Shown here in pieces: positions 39,639 to 46,489 of a stretch of DNA of 64,000 nucleotides. Numbering within the stretch: the first letter of the stretch is position 1; every line of letters starts with the position of its first letter. The notes under the pieces are model-generated. The model made no database searches, had not been told where the DNA came from, and was given only the letters and a program-made list of their open reading frames with translations. The position numbers and the translations under genes were made by a program. Source of the DNA: Verrucomicrobiota bacterium (GTDB lineage: Bacteria > Verrucomicrobiota > Verrucomicrobiia > Verrucomicrobiales > Verrucomicrobiaceae); NCBI GenBank assembly GCA_017301975.1, contig JAFLEI010000001.1, positions 62,001 to 126,000 on the forward strand, read 5' to 3'.

Positions 39639-41243
39639 TCACTGCATCAGCAGATCCCAGCTCAGTTTAAAGCGTGCCAGATATTTTTTGAGACGGTCGG
39701 CATCGTTCATTTTGCTGCGCTTCGTGCGTGAGACAGCGAAGAGCTTCCGCCCCGCATCAGAGAGCGTCTTGCTTTCCTGGCACACCTGCAAAACAAACTC
39801 CAGCTGCGCCAGATCAAAGGGATCGATTTCCTCCCTCTGCGCCTTGCTGAGCACGGAGCCCCCCTGGCGGCATGCTGGGTCACCAGCATCCTTCCATCCT
39901 TCACGCAGTCGCGCCGCCTCCGTCTCCACGCACGCTACGGTGATTCTGCCTCTGGGCGCCAGCGTGGCCATGCGCGTCACCGCCGCATTCAGGTCGCGGA
40001 AATTGGCGCTCCATTTCGCCTCCGGACTCCGGGCAAATTTGAGGAAAGCCTCGCGCGCTTCCTTGTTCATCCGCACCTGGCGCCGGTGCGACTTCGCGAA
40101 ACGTTCCAGCTCGAAATCAAGATTCGCGGCGATGTCCTCCCGCCGCTCCGCCAGACTCGGCAGCGTGAAGGTCCACAAATTGATGCGCGCCAGCAGATCA
40201 TCGCGAAACTTGCCCGCCGCGACCTGTGTTCGCAGATCGCGATTCGTTCCTGCCACAAGTTGGAAATCGCTCTGGACCGCCTTGTCAGCCCCGAGCGGCA
40301 GGAAGGTCTTGTCTTCGAGCGCCCGCAGCAGCATCGCCTGCTCGTCGAGCCCAAGCTCGCCGATCTCATCCAGAAAGATAAGCCCCTTGTCCGCCTCCTT
40401 CAGCAATCCTGGTCTGTCCGACTGCGCACCGGTGAAGGATCCACGTTTGTGCCCAAAGAGTGCCGACATCGCATGATCACCGCGCAGCGTCGCGCAGTTC
40501 ACTTCCACAAACCTGCCGCCAAGCCCCGCGCGCGAACGCCGCAGATCATAGATGCGGCTCGCTAGCATCGACTTTCCCGCCCCCGTCGGCCCCATGATCA
40601 GGATGGGTGCCTTCGAGTTCACGGCCACCAGTTCAATCTGCTCGATGAGTTTGTTGAAGCCCTTGCTCTTCGTCGCGATGCCGCTCTTCAGAAAGTCCAG
40701 CGTGCGCTCCTGCTCCTGCGCAAAGCGCGTGGAAAGCCGGTCATACTTCGAGAGATCAATATCGATGATCTCATATCTACCCGAGGCCGTCGCATCGCGC
40801 CCGCCTTCGCGTGAGGGCGAGGTTTGCAGCAGCCGCGCCGGGATGAAGTTCGCCTCGTTCAGCAGGAACCAGCAGATCTGCGCCACATGCGTTCCAGTCG
40901 TGAGATGAATCAAGTAGTCCGCCTTCTCGGGGTCGAATGCGTATCCGCGCACGAAGTCATAGAGCCTCTCATACACTTCCTGGAAATCCCACGGATCAAG
41001 CAGCGCAAACTCATGCACCACCACCGTTGTCTCCGGCGATACCTTCTCGATGTCCGCCTTCACCTGCCGCGCCAGTTCCGCAAACTTCGGCTCCACCAGC
41101 AGTTCCAGCCGAGCAATCAGCAAGTCCTCCTGCTGGCACATCGCCACCGTAGGTCGCCATTTGGACCATCTTTCCGGCCCTGAAGCACGGTCCAAGTTCG
41201 AACCGAGGAATCCGAAAGTGATAATTGGCTTGGTGGCTGGCAT
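39639..41243 (-). CDS. rtcR: RtcR, sigma-54 activator of the RNA-repair operon
   Basis: The 534-residue protein is the regulator of rtcBA. The N-terminal CARF-like sensor domain contains TFGFLGSNLD, ERWSKWRPTVAMCQQEDLL and TTGTHVAQICWFLLNEA. The AAA+ domain has Walker A GPTGAGKSMLA, the sigma-54 contact loop KRGSFTGAQ, Walker B GLIFLDEIGEL and DDLLARINLWTFTLPSL. A C-terminal helix-turn-helix region contains SDAGRKLFAVSRTKRSKMND. The start at 41243 (MPATKPIITFGFLG) gives nearly the E. coli length of 532; an upstream ATG at 41276 is less likely. CARF domains bind RNA-end-derived nucleotides, and in RtcR they are thought to sense cleaved RNA. Confidence 0.95.
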   Translation of the reverse strand: MPATKPIITFGFLGSNLDRASGPERWSKWRPTVAMCQQEDLLIARLELLVEPKFAELARQVKADIEKVSPETTVVVHEFALLDPWDFQEVYERLYDFVRGYAFDPEKADYLIHLTTGTHVAQICWFLLNEANFIPARLLQTSPSREGGRDATASGRYEIIDIDLSKYDRLSTRFAQEQERTLDFLKSGIATKSKGFNKLIEQIELVAVNSKAPILIMGPTGAGKSMLASRIYDLRRSRAGLGGRFVEVNCATLRGDHAMSALFGHKRGSFTGAQSDRPGLLKEADKGLIFLDEIGELGLDEQAMLLRALEDKTFLPLGADKAVQSDFQLVAGTNRDLRTQVAAGKFRDDLLARINLWTFTLPSLAERREDIAANLDFELERFAKSHRRQVRMNKEAREAFLKFARSPEAKWSANFRDLNAAVTRMATLAPRGRITVACVETEAARLREGWKDAGDPACRQGGSVLSKAQREEIDPFDLAQLEFVLQVCQESKTLSDAGRKLFAVSRTKRSKMNDADRLKKYLARFKLSWDLLMQ

Positions 41244-41382
41244 TAGGGATAAAAAGCTATCCAAAAAGATAAACAAATAGAATTTAAAGATTGAGCCAAA
41301 TCGAGGACGAAAAATACGGAAAAACTTTCTTCGCCTGATTCTACAAGGCCTCCAGCCTCATCAGAACCTGCCATGCCAGATC

Positions 41383-41399
41383 TTGGCACGATGCTAGCA
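41383..41399 (+). promoter_or_regulatory. Sigma-54 promoter for the RNA-repair operon
   Basis: TTGGCACGATGCTAGCA has the -24 GG at 41385-41386 and the -12 GC at 41397-41398 with exactly 10 bases between them. It matches the TGGCACG-N4-TTGCA consensus except for one T-to-A change. It lies between divergent rtcR and rsr and would start transcription near 41410, so rsr must begin downstream of this point. Confidence 0.9.
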
Positions 41400-43010: not shown

Positions 43011-43024
43011 ACAACCCACACTTT

Positions 43025-43097
43025 GGAGCCTGGTGAATGCTGGAGCGGACTACATTTCCAACTGTCACGTCTCTCCGACTTCTTGTCACCAGGCTCC
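43025..43097 (+). ncRNA. Y RNA 1: short Y RNA without a tRNA-like module
   Basis: A perfect 12 bp stem GGAGCCTGGTGA (43025-43036) pairs with TCACCAGGCTCC (43086-43097). Above it an internal loop holds AATGCT on the 5' side and CTTG on the 3' side, the Ro-binding signature. The upper stem GGAG-C-GGAC (43042-43050) pairs with GTCTCTCC (43069-43076), with one bulged C. The 18-base loop has no T- or D-arm. It starts 15 bp after the rsr stop. It is comparable in position to YrlB. Confidence 0.85.
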
Positions 43098-43117
43098 ATC
43101 CCCAACCCTTTCTCAAA

Positions 43118-43253
43118 TGATGGCGAATGCCCTGAGGAACTACATTGAATCAATCGGTCGCAGGTTCGATCCCTGCCTGTCATGCGCGAGCGTGGCAGTA
43201 GCTCAGTCTCGGTAGAGCAATTGAAATGTTTCTCGATCACCTTGTCGCCGTCA
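43118..43253 (+). ncRNA. Y RNA 2: Y RNA with complete circularly permuted tRNA-like module
   Basis: Lower stem TGATGGCGA/TCGCCGTCA (43118-43126 and 43245-43253), internal loop GAATGCC and CCTTG, and upper stem GAGGAAC/GTTTCTC (43134-43140 and 43228-43234) form the Ro site. The insert reads like a tRNA cut at the anticodon and joined at the acceptor. In order it has: anticodon-stem strand TCAAT, 5-base variable loop, T-arm GCAGG-TTCGATC-CCTGC, and a 9 bp acceptor stem closed by a GCGA tetraloop (43177-43198). Then come TA (positions 8-9), D-arm GCTC-AGTCTCGGTA-GAGC and ATTGA closing the 5 bp stem. G18G19 and T54T55C56 equivalents are present. Confidence 0.92.
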
Positions 43254-43279
43254 CCCTTTTAACCCTTCATCTCAAATCC

Positions 43280-43369
43280 TGGCGAATGCCGGAGCGGACT
43301 ACATCGAAACCAGCGGGTTCAAATCCCGCCCCGCAGCAATGCGGAGAAGTCTCTCCAACCTTGTCGCCA
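43280..43369 (+). ncRNA. Y RNA 3: Y RNA with T-arm/acceptor minihelix only
   Basis: Lower stem TGGCGA/TCGCCA (43280-43285 and 43364-43369), internal loop AATGCC/ACCTTG, and upper stem GGAG-C-GGACT/AGTCTCTCC (43291-43300 and 43348-43356). The insert has a canonical T-arm GCGGG-TTCAAAT-CCCGC (43313-43329) followed by CCGCA-GCAA-TGCGG, a 5 bp stem with a GNRA tetraloop (43331-43344). No D-arm follows. The result is a tRNA minihelix on a Y RNA stem. Confidence 0.88.
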
Positions 43370-43398
43370 CTCTCTTTTAACAAACCAATAACCTCAAA

Positions 43399-43543
43399 TG
43401 GTGACGAATGCCGATGGAACTACATGGCTATTCACCCTCCTGTCGTGGGTTCGAATCCCACCGGTTCCACCTTTCCAATTTCACGGGACCGTAGCTCAGT
43501 CTGGTAGAGCAGAGAACGTTTCATCACACCCTTGTCGTCACCA
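43399..43543 (+). ncRNA. Y RNA 4: second permuted tRNA-like Y RNA
   Basis: Lower stem TGGTGACGA/TCGTCACCA (43399-43407 and 43535-43543) and upper stem GATGGAAC/GTTTCATC (43413-43420 and 43518-43525) flank GAATGCC and CACACCCTTG loops. The insert has T-arm GTGGG-TTCGAAT-CCCAC (43445-43461). A 7 bp acceptor stem CGGTTCC/GGGACCG follows (43462-43468 and 43485-43491), closed by a 16-base loop rather than a tetraloop. Then come TA and D-arm GCTC-AGTCTGGTA-GAGC (43494-43510). Only about 3 bp of anticodon-type stem (GAG/CTC) can form. It ends 20 bp before rtcB. Confidence 0.92.
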
Positions 43544-43562
43544 CCATTTTATAAACACAACC

Positions 43563-45050
43563 ATGACATCCCCATTCCACATCACCAACGAAGCCGAAGC
43601 CATCCTGCCTGCCCGCAACAATGCCGGTAAACCGATCACCGTGATCGGTACGGAAGCTATCCGCTCCGGCTTCGACCAGACCTGCATCGACCAGGCTCTC
43701 AACTCGCGCTCCGCTCCAGGCGTGACTGATCTCGTGCTCAATCCTGATGCGCATGCCGGTTACGGCGCTCCGGTCGGCTGCGTGATGGTTTCGCCAACCC
43801 ACATCTATCCAGGTCCTGTTGGCGTGGACATCAAGTGCTCCATGTCCCTCCTGCAGATGAACGTCCCTGCGGATGCGATCATGGACAAAACAATCCGTCG
43901 CCGTCTCATCGACGCCATCTTGCTCCGTACCCCAACCGGCGCAGGCCGTGGTCAGCGCGAGGCGAAAAAATCCCGTCGCGTGTCCGAGGCTCTCGGTGTG
44001 CAGGTGTGCACCGAAGGCGCCAGCAAAAGCGTGTGCGAAGCACTTGGCATCCCGCCCGAGTGGGCGTTCCGCTGCGAAGACAGCGCGCACCTCGGCCATG
44101 ACGGAAACGTCTCCACCCTGCACGAGCGCCTCGACAAGATGCGCTCGTTCAACGGTTTCGCCGGTTTCGAAAACAAGATGATGCAGCTCGGCTCCTACGG
44201 TGGTGGAAACCACTTCGGTGAGTGCGAGGTCGTGCAGCTTGCCGATGACGCTGCGATGCGCTCCACCGCCGAAGTCTTCGGTCTGCGCGACAACCACGTC
44301 GCCTTCCTCAGCCACTGCGGCTCTCGCGGGTTCGGCAACATCCTGGCCCAGCGTCAGTTCAAGGCGCTGGAAGGCTTCTTCCGCACCTGGGGCCTGTCCT
44401 TTCCTGCCGAAGACAAACAGCTCGTCTATGCCCCGCTCGGTACTCCCGAAGCGGACGCCTATCTCGATGACATGGCTCTCGGGGCAAACTTCGCCACCGT
44501 GAATCACATGCTCATCAACGCCCTCGTGCTCGAAGCCTTCCAGGAGGTGCTGCCAGGAACGACAGGCCAGCTCGTGTACTTCATCAGCCACAACATCGCC
44601 CGTCAGGAGGTCGTGGACAACCAGCTCGCCTGGGTCCACCGCAAAGGCGCCACTCGCGCCTTCCCCGGCGGCCACCACGCGCTCAAGGACACCCCTTTCG
44701 CCGCCACCGGCCACCCAATCCTGCTGCCCGGAAATCCACGCGACGGTTCCGTGGTGATGGTGGCAAAACCCGATGCCGTGAAAAGCTGCTACAGCGTGAA
44801 CCACGGCGCCGGCCGCTGCATGGGCCGCAAAGCCGCCGCTCGAACGCTCGATCAAAAGAGCGTCGATGCCGACTTCGAAACCCACGACATCCTCTACAAC
44901 GCCCGCCAGTACCCAATCGACGAAGCCCCCAACGCCTACAAGGATTTCAAAGAAGTCCTCCGCAGCGTCGAGTCCGCCGGTCTCGCCCAGCAGGTTTGCA
45001 AACTCAAAGCCCGCTTCGTCATCAAAGACGCCGCGGAGGCGGATGATTGA
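43563..45050 (+). CDS. rtcB: RtcB, RNA 3'-phosphate/5'-OH ligase
   Basis: The 495-residue GTP- and Mn-dependent ligase seals RNA ends bearing 2',3'-cyclic phosphate or 3'-phosphate to 5'-OH ends. Metal and nucleotide sites are visible: PDAHAGYGAPVG, GVDIKCSM, GGGNHFGE, SHCGSRGFGN, SHNIARQE and the guanylated His in NHGAGRCMGRK. The ATG at 43563 is chosen because the earlier in-frame ATG at 43398 lies inside Y RNA 4. It is longer than E. coli RtcB (408) and belongs to a longer subgroup. The start context is AACCATG. Confidence 0.96.
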   Translation: MTSPFHITNEAEAILPARNNAGKPITVIGTEAIRSGFDQTCIDQALNSRSAPGVTDLVLNPDAHAGYGAPVGCVMVSPTHIYPGPVGVDIKCSMSLLQMNVPADAIMDKTIRRRLIDAILLRTPTGAGRGQREAKKSRRVSEALGVQVCTEGASKSVCEALGIPPEWAFRCEDSAHLGHDGNVSTLHERLDKMRSFNGFAGFENKMMQLGSYGGGNHFGECEVVQLADDAAMRSTAEVFGLRDNHVAFLSHCGSRGFGNILAQRQFKALEGFFRTWGLSFPAEDKQLVYAPLGTPEADAYLDDMALGANFATVNHMLINALVLEAFQEVLPGTTGQLVYFISHNIARQEVVDNQLAWVHRKGATRAFPGGHHALKDTPFAATGHPILLPGNPRDGSVVMVAKPDAVKSCYSVNHGAGRCMGRKAAARTLDQKSVDADFETHDILYNARQYPIDEAPNAYKDFKEVLRSVESAGLAQQVCKLKARFVIKDAAEADD

Positions 45051-45077: not shown

Positions 45078-45467
45078 GTGAGCAGTCAAAAAACAGAACC
45101 CATTTCGACATGGGTGGAAGTCGATGAAGATCACGATTCTGGAACGATGTTGCTGTTGGGTGATCAGAGCGGCCTGATGGCCCTCCGCGATGCCATTGAT
45201 ATCGCTATTATGGAGGCCGAAGCTCCCATTTGCGCCGAGTGCATCGAATTCAGCGGAGTGCGTCGTGTCGATGTGCTTCGCAAGCCCGAGCCCGCGTCTT
45301 TTCAATCGAGATTGGCGGGGGCTGGTTGTCTGATTTTCATCGTCATCTGTTTCCTGATCTTTTTGCTCGGGCTCTGGCAGATGAAGAATCTTATTCTGCG
45401 GTTCGCCTCCGATCCGACCAAAGCCACGTGCATGTTACGCGCATCGAAATTCGCCACACAAACATGA
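45078..45467 (+). CDS. Small protein with one membrane span between rtcB and rtcA
   Basis: The 129-residue product starts at a GTG (45078) and ends in an ATGA overlap with rtcA. The N-terminal half is acidic (WVEVDEDHDSGTMLLLGDQS, MALRDAIDIAIMEAEAPI), then has a CAEC pair. A hydrophobic helix (GCLIFIVICFLIFLLGLW) lies at about residues 83-100, with a short basic tail. I do not recognise the family. The overlap with rtcA and the operon position support a real gene; a role in anchoring or sensing is speculation. Confidence 0.7.
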   Translation: MSSQKTEPISTWVEVDEDHDSGTMLLLGDQSGLMALRDAIDIAIMEAEAPICAECIEFSGVRRVDVLRKPEPASFQSRLAGAGCLIFIVICFLIFLLGLWQMKNLILRFASDPTKATCMLRASKFATQT

Positions 45468-46489
45468 AATCCTCCCCCATTCTGCAAATCTCCGGCGACT
45501 CCGGCGGCGGCCAGATCCTGCGCTCCTCCCTCTCCCTGTCGCTCGCTACCGGCCAGCCTTTTCGCATGACCAACATCCGCGGCAAGCGCCCCAAGCCCGG
45601 CCTCATGCGCCAGCACCTCACCTGCGTGAAAGCAGCGGCGGCAGTCTGCGACGCCAGCGTCGATGGCGCAGAACTTGGCTCAGTGGAGCTTGTCTTCCGC
45701 CCCGGCAAAGTCATGGCCGGCGACTACTCCTTCGCCATCGGCTCCGGTGGCAGCACCACCCTCGTCTTGCAGACCCTGCTTCCCGCACTTTTGCACGCAG
45801 AAAAGCCCAGCACCCTGCGCATCGAAGGAGGCACGCACAATCCCATGGCCCCACCCTTCGAGTTCATCGAGCAGTGCTACCTGCCCGTGATTCAAAGCAT
45901 GGGCGTGAAAGCCGCCGCGACGCTGGAGCGCCCTGGTTTCATGCAGGCAGGCGGCGGCGTGATCACCGCCGAGATTCATCCCATCAAGAAATGGAAAAAG
46001 CTCAAACTCACTGAGCGCGGCGATGCCATGGAAACCTTTGGCCGCGTCCTCCACGCCCACCTGCATCGAGACATCGCGGAGCGTGAAATCGCCGCCGCCA
46101 CCCAGCTCCTGGAATGGCCGGCAAATCACATTGAACTGCGCTACGCCAATGACAGCACAGGCCCCGGCAATGCGATCCTGCTCGGCGCTCGTTTTGCCAA
46201 CGTCTGCGAAATCACCAGCGGCATCGCGCAACAAGGCAAATCGTCTGAATCCGTGGCTACAGGTGCCGCGAAAAGCCTGCGCTCCTACCTTGCCTCGCCC
46301 GCACCCGTCGGCGCTCATCTCGCAGATCAGCTCCTTCTCCCCATGGCTCTGGCCGGCGGCGGCCTCTTCCACACCCTCACCATCACCGACCACACCCTCA
46401 CAAACATCGCCCTCATCGAGCAGTTCCTGCCCGTGAAGTTTACCATCGAAGACCTGAAGCCCGGTGTGAAGAAAATCCGCTGCAGCTAA
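45464..46489 (+). CDS. rtcA: RtcA, RNA 3'-terminal phosphate cyclase
   Basis: The 341-residue enzyme uses ATP to convert RNA 3'-phosphate to 2',3'-cyclic phosphate through an adenylated His. Family blocks are SGDSGGGQILRSSLSLS at the start, RGKRPKPGLMRQHLTCV, SGGSTTLVLQTLLPAL, GGTHNPMAPPFEF and the final HLADQLLLPMALAGGG. The adenylation His is in this last segment, HLADQL. The E. coli length is 338. It is translated from the ATG at 45464 overlapping the small membrane-protein stop. Confidence 0.96.
   Translation: MKSSPILQISGDSGGGQILRSSLSLSLATGQPFRMTNIRGKRPKPGLMRQHLTCVKAAAAVCDASVDGAELGSVELVFRPGKVMAGDYSFAIGSGGSTTLVLQTLLPALLHAEKPSTLRIEGGTHNPMAPPFEFIEQCYLPVIQSMGVKAAATLERPGFMQAGGGVITAEIHPIKKWKKLKLTERGDAMETFGRVLHAHLHRDIAEREIAAATQLLEWPANHIELRYANDSTGPGNAILLGARFANVCEITSGIAQQGKSSESVATGAAKSLRSYLASPAPVGAHLADQLLLPMALAGGGLFHTLTITDHTLTNIALIEQFLPVKFTIEDLKPGVKKIRCS

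Follow-up and report, generated by a model that had tools for sequence, protein, structure and literature searches.

Four predicted Y RNAs with one Ro-type stem and different tRNA-like modules between rsr and rtcB of a verrucomicrobial RNA repair operon

Why should one Ro ring protein be accompanied by four Y RNAs of different structure? The question is raised by a locus of a Verrucomicrobiota bacterium, at which four Y RNA units follow each other head-to-tail on the plus strand between rsr and rtcB. The window, by which the whole analysed stretch of 64 kb is meant, carries the divergent rtcR, then rsr, the four Y RNAs, rtcB, a small ORF, and rtcA, which by Pfam is the gene order of an RNA repair operon. 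The protein genes and the promoter site are as follows:

39639..41276, minus strand: rtcR, divergent sigma-54 activator (Pfam RtcR, E 2e-78; Sigma54_activat, E 6e-49); the coordinates are ORF limits with an uncertain true start
41384..41399, plus strand: sigma-54 type promoter TGGCACG-N4-TAGCA, a sequence match that begins 58 nt before the rsr start codon
41442..43010, plus strand: rsr, Ro60 orthologue with TROVE and vWA domains (Pfam vWA_Ro60 and TROVE; Deinococcus Rsr 2nvo, E 1.3e-21, residues 21-508)
43563..45050, plus strand: rtcB, RNA ligase (Pfam RtcB, E 2.7e-99)
45464..46489, plus strand: rtcA, RNA 3'-phosphate cyclase (Pfam RTC, E 3.7e-77)

With the divergent rtcR followed by rtcB and rtcA, the operon is of the RtcR-controlled RNA repair type, and the combination of TROVE and vWA domains, together with the match to 2nvo, identifies the first gene product as a Ro60/Rsr protein. 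The DxSxS metal site is invariant in nine aligned sequences, that of the window included. One Rsr was detected in this genome (a single match listed for G000), and the closest named relatives by Rsr belong to the Verrucomicrobiaceae, such as Prosthecobacter and Brevifollis. The small ORF between rtcB and rtcA (45078-45467) has no Pfam family. The longest ORF of rtcB begins at an ATG at 43398, just before the fourth Y RNA, and reads through that RNA (43398-43562); rtcB gene calls may gain a false N-terminal extension from Y RNA sequence. Elsewhere in the genome (C24:106000-109400, L100) there is a cluster of weak or odd tRNA genes, including Leu tRNAs without a long variable arm, which has the look of a mobile element.

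The sigma-54 type site upstream of the operon is the only match in the 64 kb, where 0.04 would be expected. A site of this type lies 49-58 nt upstream of rsr in seven of the nine loci of the clade (L116-L124) and in none of the 67 other bacterial loci, i.e. in 7 of 76 in total, and a coding control gave 0 of 76. Between 41250 and 43700, neither a sigma-70 promoter nor a terminator was found, which fits a single transcript, although it is not a proof of one. The RtcR type of the operon and the sigma-54 type site in front of it make it probable that RNA damage induces the four RNAs jointly with Rsr, RtcB and RtcA. In some bacteria the rtcBA operon holds Y RNAs and Rsr (PMC7790460), and the RNA repair operon of Salmonella is switched on by tRNA fragments (PMC7790460, PMC8394870).

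The four units are listed below with their scores for R1, a covariance model trained on 25 plain Y RNAs, all from loci that do not belong to the window's clade, and for the Rfam family YrlA, the cut-off of which is 69 bits:

43024..43098, plus strand: Y1, plain Y RNA with a 13-bp basal stem and without a tRNA module (R1 52.1 bits, E 2.8e-14; fold z -5.7)
43118..43253, plus strand: Y2, full permuted tRNA mimic with a GNRA-capped acceptor (R1 E 1.1e-10; YrlA 55.7 bits, below cut-off)
43160-43176, 43177-43185/43190-43198 and 43201-43218, plus strand: T arm, acceptor and D arm of Y2
43280..43369, plus strand: Y3, minihelix Y RNA without a D arm (R1 E 1.9e-6; YrlA 30.4 bits, below cut-off)
43313-43329 and 43331-43344, plus strand: T arm of Y3 and its hairpin with a GCAA loop
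43399..43543, plus strand: Y4, full permuted tRNA mimic (R1 E 1.6e-12; YrlA 75.1 bits, over cut-off)
43445-43461, 43462-43468/43485-43491, 43469-43471 and 43494-43510, plus strand: T arm, 7-bp acceptor, open ACC tip and D arm of Y4

The basal stem of Y1 is perfect over its 13 bp. In the head of Y2, the T arm leads into an acceptor helix with a GCGA cap and then into the D arm, so that this head is a circularly permuted tRNA without the anticodon arm. In Y3 the T arm is followed by the GCAA-loop hairpin. The head of Y4 runs from the T arm through a 7-bp acceptor strand, the ACC tail, a short loop and the second acceptor strand to the D arm. The first-pass annotation had described precisely these four structurally different Y RNAs, with no module, a full mimic, a T-arm/acceptor minihelix and a second full mimic, and this description is confirmed. 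Its further idea of a graded series is borne out with respect to the four differing heads but not with respect to a strict grading, as the actual order is plain, full, minihelix, full. When folded alone, each unit is more stable than its own shuffles, with z values of -5.7, -2.6, -3.0 and -1.8 for Y1 to Y4, of which the last is weak alone.

That the four units are variants of one RNA is best seen with R1, which up to E = 1 has exactly four matches in the window, namely Y1 to Y4. There is thus one Ro-type chassis common to all of them, as the earlier description had it, and the units differ in the module of the apical loop; where the plain RNA has its apical loop, the R1 alignment shows the tRNA parts as inserted sequence. 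The basal stem has the AAUGC and CUUG elements of Ro-type stems and varies by compensatory change, and the units lie on the same strand as the adjoining rsr, as is expected for bacterial Y RNAs. R1 was also run on 54 sources that were not used in training, where all of its 106 matches at E <= 0.01 are on the rsr strand and at least one match is found in 41 of 45 bacterial rsr loci (none in L140, L148, L175 and L188). Beyond the array, R1 and YrlA had no match in the window genome, in a whole-genome run in which R1 listed Y1 and Y3 alone of the four units, its first pass presumably losing the longer ones.

The YrlA search that had been suggested for this locus was less uniform, as it recognizes Y4 above the cut-off, leaves Y2 and Y3 below it, and does not match Y1. 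Since YrlA gives sub-cut-off matches in 7 of 14 control genomes, scores at the level of Y3 are no evidence alone. A phylum-wide count with YrlA (92 of 387 genomes at E <= 0.001, just 7 of them over the cut-off, with 6 of the 14 controls matching below it) was left unused, because many of the weak matches seem to be pairs of ordinary tRNA genes. A locus of bacterial Y RNAs is expected to have a tRNA-like domain in at least one of its RNAs, and here Y2 and Y4 carry a full one and Y3 a partial one. Chen and colleagues reportedly found in 2014 Y RNAs in more than 250 species, each with at least one that carries a tRNA-like domain.

Several other identities were rejected. ARAGORN finds no tRNA gene in the window, and a cloverleaf with an anticodon arm is absent from the units. 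The tmRNA models, one-piece or permuted, stay below the Rfam cut-off of 47, the Y4 mimic reaching 28.3 bits (permuted) and 18.6 bits, and the T arm of Y3 15.5 bits. Nor do the heads of the window appear to be copied from particular host tRNAs, as the Y4 acceptor GGGACCG occurs in none of 51 distinct host tRNAs; the T and D arms of Y4 are, by reading, closest to tRNA-Pro.

The stems might still have turned out not to be conserved among relatives, which the first-pass annotation had named as the outcome that would speak against it, but compensatory changes are found in the sets of all four units. In the Y4 set of 17 sequences, 19 of 32 pairs are compensatory and 99.1% of the cells are paired, which none of 500 shuffles reached, and controls with a slid structure had at most 48.9% paired; the D arm is invariant in this set and thus uninformative either way. 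In the 13 sequences of the Y3 set, the corresponding values are 14 of 26 pairs and 95.2%, again with 0 of 500 shuffles as high and with at most 56.1% in the slid controls. For Y2 (12 sequences, 7 of 30 pairs) and Y1 (11 sequences, 8 of 26 pairs) there are the counts alone, without shuffles. All these values are biased in favour of the structures, which were predicted from the same alignments, and the sets are hand-chosen relatives, that of Y4 consisting of Y4 and similar full mimics that are in part not orthologous. Even so read, the Y3 and Y4 sets support that the modules keep their folds through compensatory change.

Arrays of this kind are by no means restricted to the window. When bacterial and archaeal genomes were scanned with an Rsr alignment, 375 relatives came up, and the analysis continued with the best 80. 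Among these bacterial loci, at least one unit was found anywhere in the fetched stretch in 77 of 80 and at least two in 75 of 80; within 2.5 kb downstream of rsr, 70 of the 80 have at least two units, with 5 of the 80 loci ending within 600 nt of rsr. Arrays are thus the rule among these relatives, the copy number within the 2.5 kb ranges from 0 to 6, and 68 of the best 80 contain more than one kind of unit. The array of the window is ordinary in size, and the contrast that had been drawn to the two Y RNAs of Salmonella was overstated: uniqueness of a four-unit array is ruled out by the frequency of arrays in relatives, and an enteric-type contig that is treated below has three units. The counts come from a scored finder of the Ro chassis, which in 26 loci gave array units scores of at least 13.97, others at most 13.1 (as judged by position) and the opposite strand at most 12.8. 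At a threshold of 14 on 119 fetched loci, the opposite strand yields one unit in each of 10 loci, and the finder misses some units, such as the plain unit of L072, which the first parser had seen, and two plain units of L177, which R1 finds. The unit parsers that preceded it were less reliable, as units were fused or overlooked and a few entries were false. Among viral contigs, of which several are near-duplicates and in which units are mostly plain, the finder has a unit in 25 of 39 and R1 in 29 of 39, with 63 matches that are all on the rsr strand. Around distant Rsr paralogues of about 30% identity or less, 11 regions in 10 genomes, of which four had flanks of at most 1.5 kb, were devoid of units scoring 14 or more, and R1 had no match in the seven longer regions. 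Such paralogues without nearby units occur in several relatives (L060-L063, L089-L095).

Some relatives show peculiarities that may be recorded here. In some Acidobacteria (L134, L142, L157, L160, L179), units are found just upstream of rsr as well as downstream. In L083 (G074), two of the four Y RNAs (618-837 and 993-1211) have their T loop interrupted by nearly identical inserts of about 93 nt, which are 94% alike. No Rfam family was found for the insert, and 51 nt of it are present again in the same genome at three further places, where ARAGORN finds no tRNA. L072, L074 and L120, the last being the same locus as L069, have units in which, by reading, a hairpin with a GATAA-containing loop and a second hairpin replace the canonical T arm and acceptor; these minihelix-like units were scored as plain or T-only. 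The third units of L081 and L084 have a hairpin after the D arm at the place of the anticodon arm and, by reading, are the only such mimics that were noticed.

How constant is the composition of the arrays? Nine of the 13 loci whose Rsr is at least 81% identical, a count that includes the window, keep the order plain, full, minihelix, full; of the other four, L120 differs by an additional unit, and the arrays of L072-L074 are made up differently, from four or five units. For the wider comparison, 80 non-redundant loci were clustered at 70% Rsr identity into 34 clusters, 32 of which offer an array of at least two units; each cluster was represented by one locus, and units were placed on a scale of completeness from plain over minihelix to full, the few T-arm-only units being counted as plain. 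Going away from rsr, the later unit is the more complete one in 80 pairs and the less complete one in 23, a value that none of 20,000 within-array permutations reached, and with clustering at 80% the numbers are 104 and 32 pairs in 48 arrays, again with 0 of 20,000 permutations as high. Because shared ancestry persists below 70% identity, these figures are not clean probabilities. Of the 32 arrays, 26 are mixed and 11 have all three kinds, and the plain unit comes first in 17 of the 26 mixed ones. The window departs from the trend once, where the minihelix follows a full mimic. As far as could be checked, it is new that the three kinds recur across distant groups in an order that tends to rise in completeness, and this recurrence of kinds and order suggests that the variety has been selected and is not accidental.

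The tRNA mimicry of the full heads goes into detail. U8 is present in 141 of the 142 full mimics whose D stem has 4 bp, G18G19 in 133 and C48 in 113; since A14, a G-rich D loop and most of the T loop were preconditions for the parser to accept a mimic, only U8 (for which T or A was allowed) and position 48 (which was free) are independent evidence. When the D arms of 151 full mimics were compared with the tRNAs of the window genome, four were of the initiator type (scores 11-15, against 5-7.5 for any class I elongator), two matched tRNA-Leu (15-17 against 7.5-8), and two were closest to tRNA-Gln, one of them weakly. The acceptor end was examined in those 56 of 65 full mimics from 56 cluster representatives that have no GNRA cap; a row was counted if at least 6 of 7 acceptor pairs were present and the tip had 3 nt or more. 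At the place of C74C75, CC is found in 16 of the 56, where tip shuffles gave an expectation of 3.5 and in 5,000 cases never reached this value, and A at position 73 is found in 26, where 15.7 were expected and 4 of 5,000 shuffles were as high. A minority of full mimics thus appears to carry an internal NCC(A)-like acceptor end, which is new as far as checked. A junction of tandem tRNA genes would give a T arm, an acceptor strand, NCCA, a spacer, an acceptor strand and a D arm in this order, and the heads may have originated in this way. A design by tip was considered and rejected, as arrays that combine capped and open tips (25 of 40, with 21.6 expected) are no commoner than chance.

The window array has parts in common with several known systems. 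Like YrlA (RF02553), the units have a Ro-type basal stem, carry the permuted series of T arm, acceptor and D arm in the loop, and adjoin rsr and rtcB, and Y4 passes the cut-off of that family; they differ in that Y2 and Y3 remain below it, Y1 is unmatched, Y3 lacks the D arm, and there are four units instead of one YrlA. Y1 resembles YrlB (RF02565), the short enteric Y RNA, in being a plain Ro stem without a tRNA head that comes first in the array, but the Rfam model of YrlB does not match Y1 up to E = 1, and Y1 has the perfect 13-bp basal stem. The gene content and the divergent RtcR are those of the Salmonella operon rsr-yrlBA-rtcBA, for which PMC7790460 names two Y RNAs, whereas there are four here and in another phylum. 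In Deinococcus, whose Rsr 2nvo is orthologous, Rsr, Y RNA and PNPase form the RYPER complex, where the Y RNA is the gate and tethers Rsr to PNPase (PMC8394870 and PMC4726728, for RYPER also PMC8058203), while for the window a role of PNPase is only proposed and there are several types of heads. The literature further describes that YrlA is modified by DusA and TruB (PMC8394870), that a TROVE protein is encoded by a small subset of jumbo phages (PMC7824862), and that in a Listeria phage an Rsr-like gene lies close to three regions of high transcription, for which Y RNAs were suggested (PMC12282133). The latter comes nearest to what is reported here, and in the passages searched, no description of arrays or of permuted mimics in bacteria was found.

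A particularly useful comparison is offered by L235, an enteric-type contig without annotation that is labelled as Salmonella phage, a label that is unverified. It carries the end of an Rsr gene (58% identical to that of the window), followed by YrlB (719-796, 105.5 bits), YrlA (70.9 bits) and a third unit (925-1033) that has 31.7 bits to YrlA and thus is below the cut-off, after which, by reading, rtcB starts. In the third unit, also by reading, a T arm and an acceptor helix can be recognized while a D arm is missing, which makes it minihelix-like, so that the plain, full and minihelix kinds occur there, too. R1 has two matches in L235 and none in L236, and the L235 array had no match in complete E. 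coli genomes at the sensitivity of megablast. As both Y3 and this third unit score far below 69 bits, Rfam YrlA annotation misses the minihelix kind.

What the array is for can be explained in more than one way. That it is the remnant of a tRNA gene cluster, or consists of pseudogenes and not of Y RNAs, is hardly credible: the T and D arms are indeed tRNA-like and some tips have NCC(A)-like ends, but besides the lack of ARAGORN tRNAs, the Ro stem model matches all four units at E 1.9e-6 or better, the stems covary, and the Ro stem in particular has been conserved by compensatory change. The four RNAs could also be redundant copies that all do the same job as ring gate and PNPase tether, the array being a matter of dosage, with heads that drift with little consequence. 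The range of 0 to 6 copies would agree with this, as would the differences in unit sets between groups and in 4 of the 13 closest loci, and since L072-L074 differ in their sets even at 81-85% Rsr identity, arrays could reflect dosage with drift of the heads. Redundancy is nevertheless quite improbable, as compensatory changes preserve a separate structure in each of the four types, the order is the same in 9 of the 13 closest loci, and the kinds are not randomly placed across groups.

Somewhat less improbable, though still unlikely, is a function as decoys, in which the heads would, under RNA damage, tie up or inhibit anticodon nucleases, tRNA-fragment sensors or tRNA-processing enzymes, and Rsr would do no more than stabilise the RNAs. 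It would suit such decoys that tRNA fragments switch the operon on, and Hughes et al. suggest either tRNA decay or a tRNA-like domain of YrlA that competes for an anticodon nuclease (PMC7790460). The heads have no anticodon arm that could be cut. Also the resemblance of some relatives' heads to particular tRNAs, with 4 initiator-type and 2 Leu-type D arms among the 151 full mimics, would fit. However, the plain Y RNAs have no tRNA head and yet come first in 17 of 26 mixed arrays, and an anticodon nuclease would probably need just the missing arm for binding.

The reading that we prefer, and to which we assign a probability of about two in three, is that the four Y RNAs, with one Ro-type stem and differing apical modules, are interchangeable adapters that likely compete for the single Rsr ring and choose the enzyme or RNA that it meets. 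The sequence itself shows the operon, the stem that the units share, and the modules with their conservation, and a common stem with differing heads is what one ring that serves several partners would look like. The first-pass annotation had arrived at a similar idea of one ring with different clients; the four heads on one stem beside the sole detected Rsr speak for it, and only the notion that the type of locus is unusual had to be given up. In the adapter reading, the Y RNAs would be cut from a common transcript, the whole operon being made as a single unit after induction by RNA damage, and all four would bind the single Rsr through the common stem, which, as there is one stem for this binding, would make them compete for it. 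For the plain RNA, gating of the ring or tethering of a nuclease such as PNPase by its stem would be the main role, the minihelix would offer what readers of the T arm and acceptor need, and the full mimics would add the D arm and the elbow, so that partners would differ from module to module. The bound RNA would then steer the ring among its partners during the RNA damage that is sensed by RtcR.

A more far-reaching and tentative proposal is that one Ro-binding stem carries graded impersonators of tRNA, namely plain, minihelix and full, which in some relatives have different identities (initiator-, Leu- and Gln-type D arms) and are ordered by completeness away from rsr, and that full heads arose where tandem tRNA genes adjoin, some still with an internal NCCA-like end, and that each head might dock another tRNA enzyme on the one ring.

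The point of chief interest is that three kinds of heads occur in ordered arrays across distant groups, with internal acceptor ends in a minority. Arrays of nested tRNA pieces on one stem, from none over T arm and acceptor to the addition of the D arm, are a natural truncation series, and such a series could tell which part of the mimic recruits which partner. The arrays thereby bear on the question of what roles bacterial Y RNAs may have beyond the PNPase example of Deinococcus.
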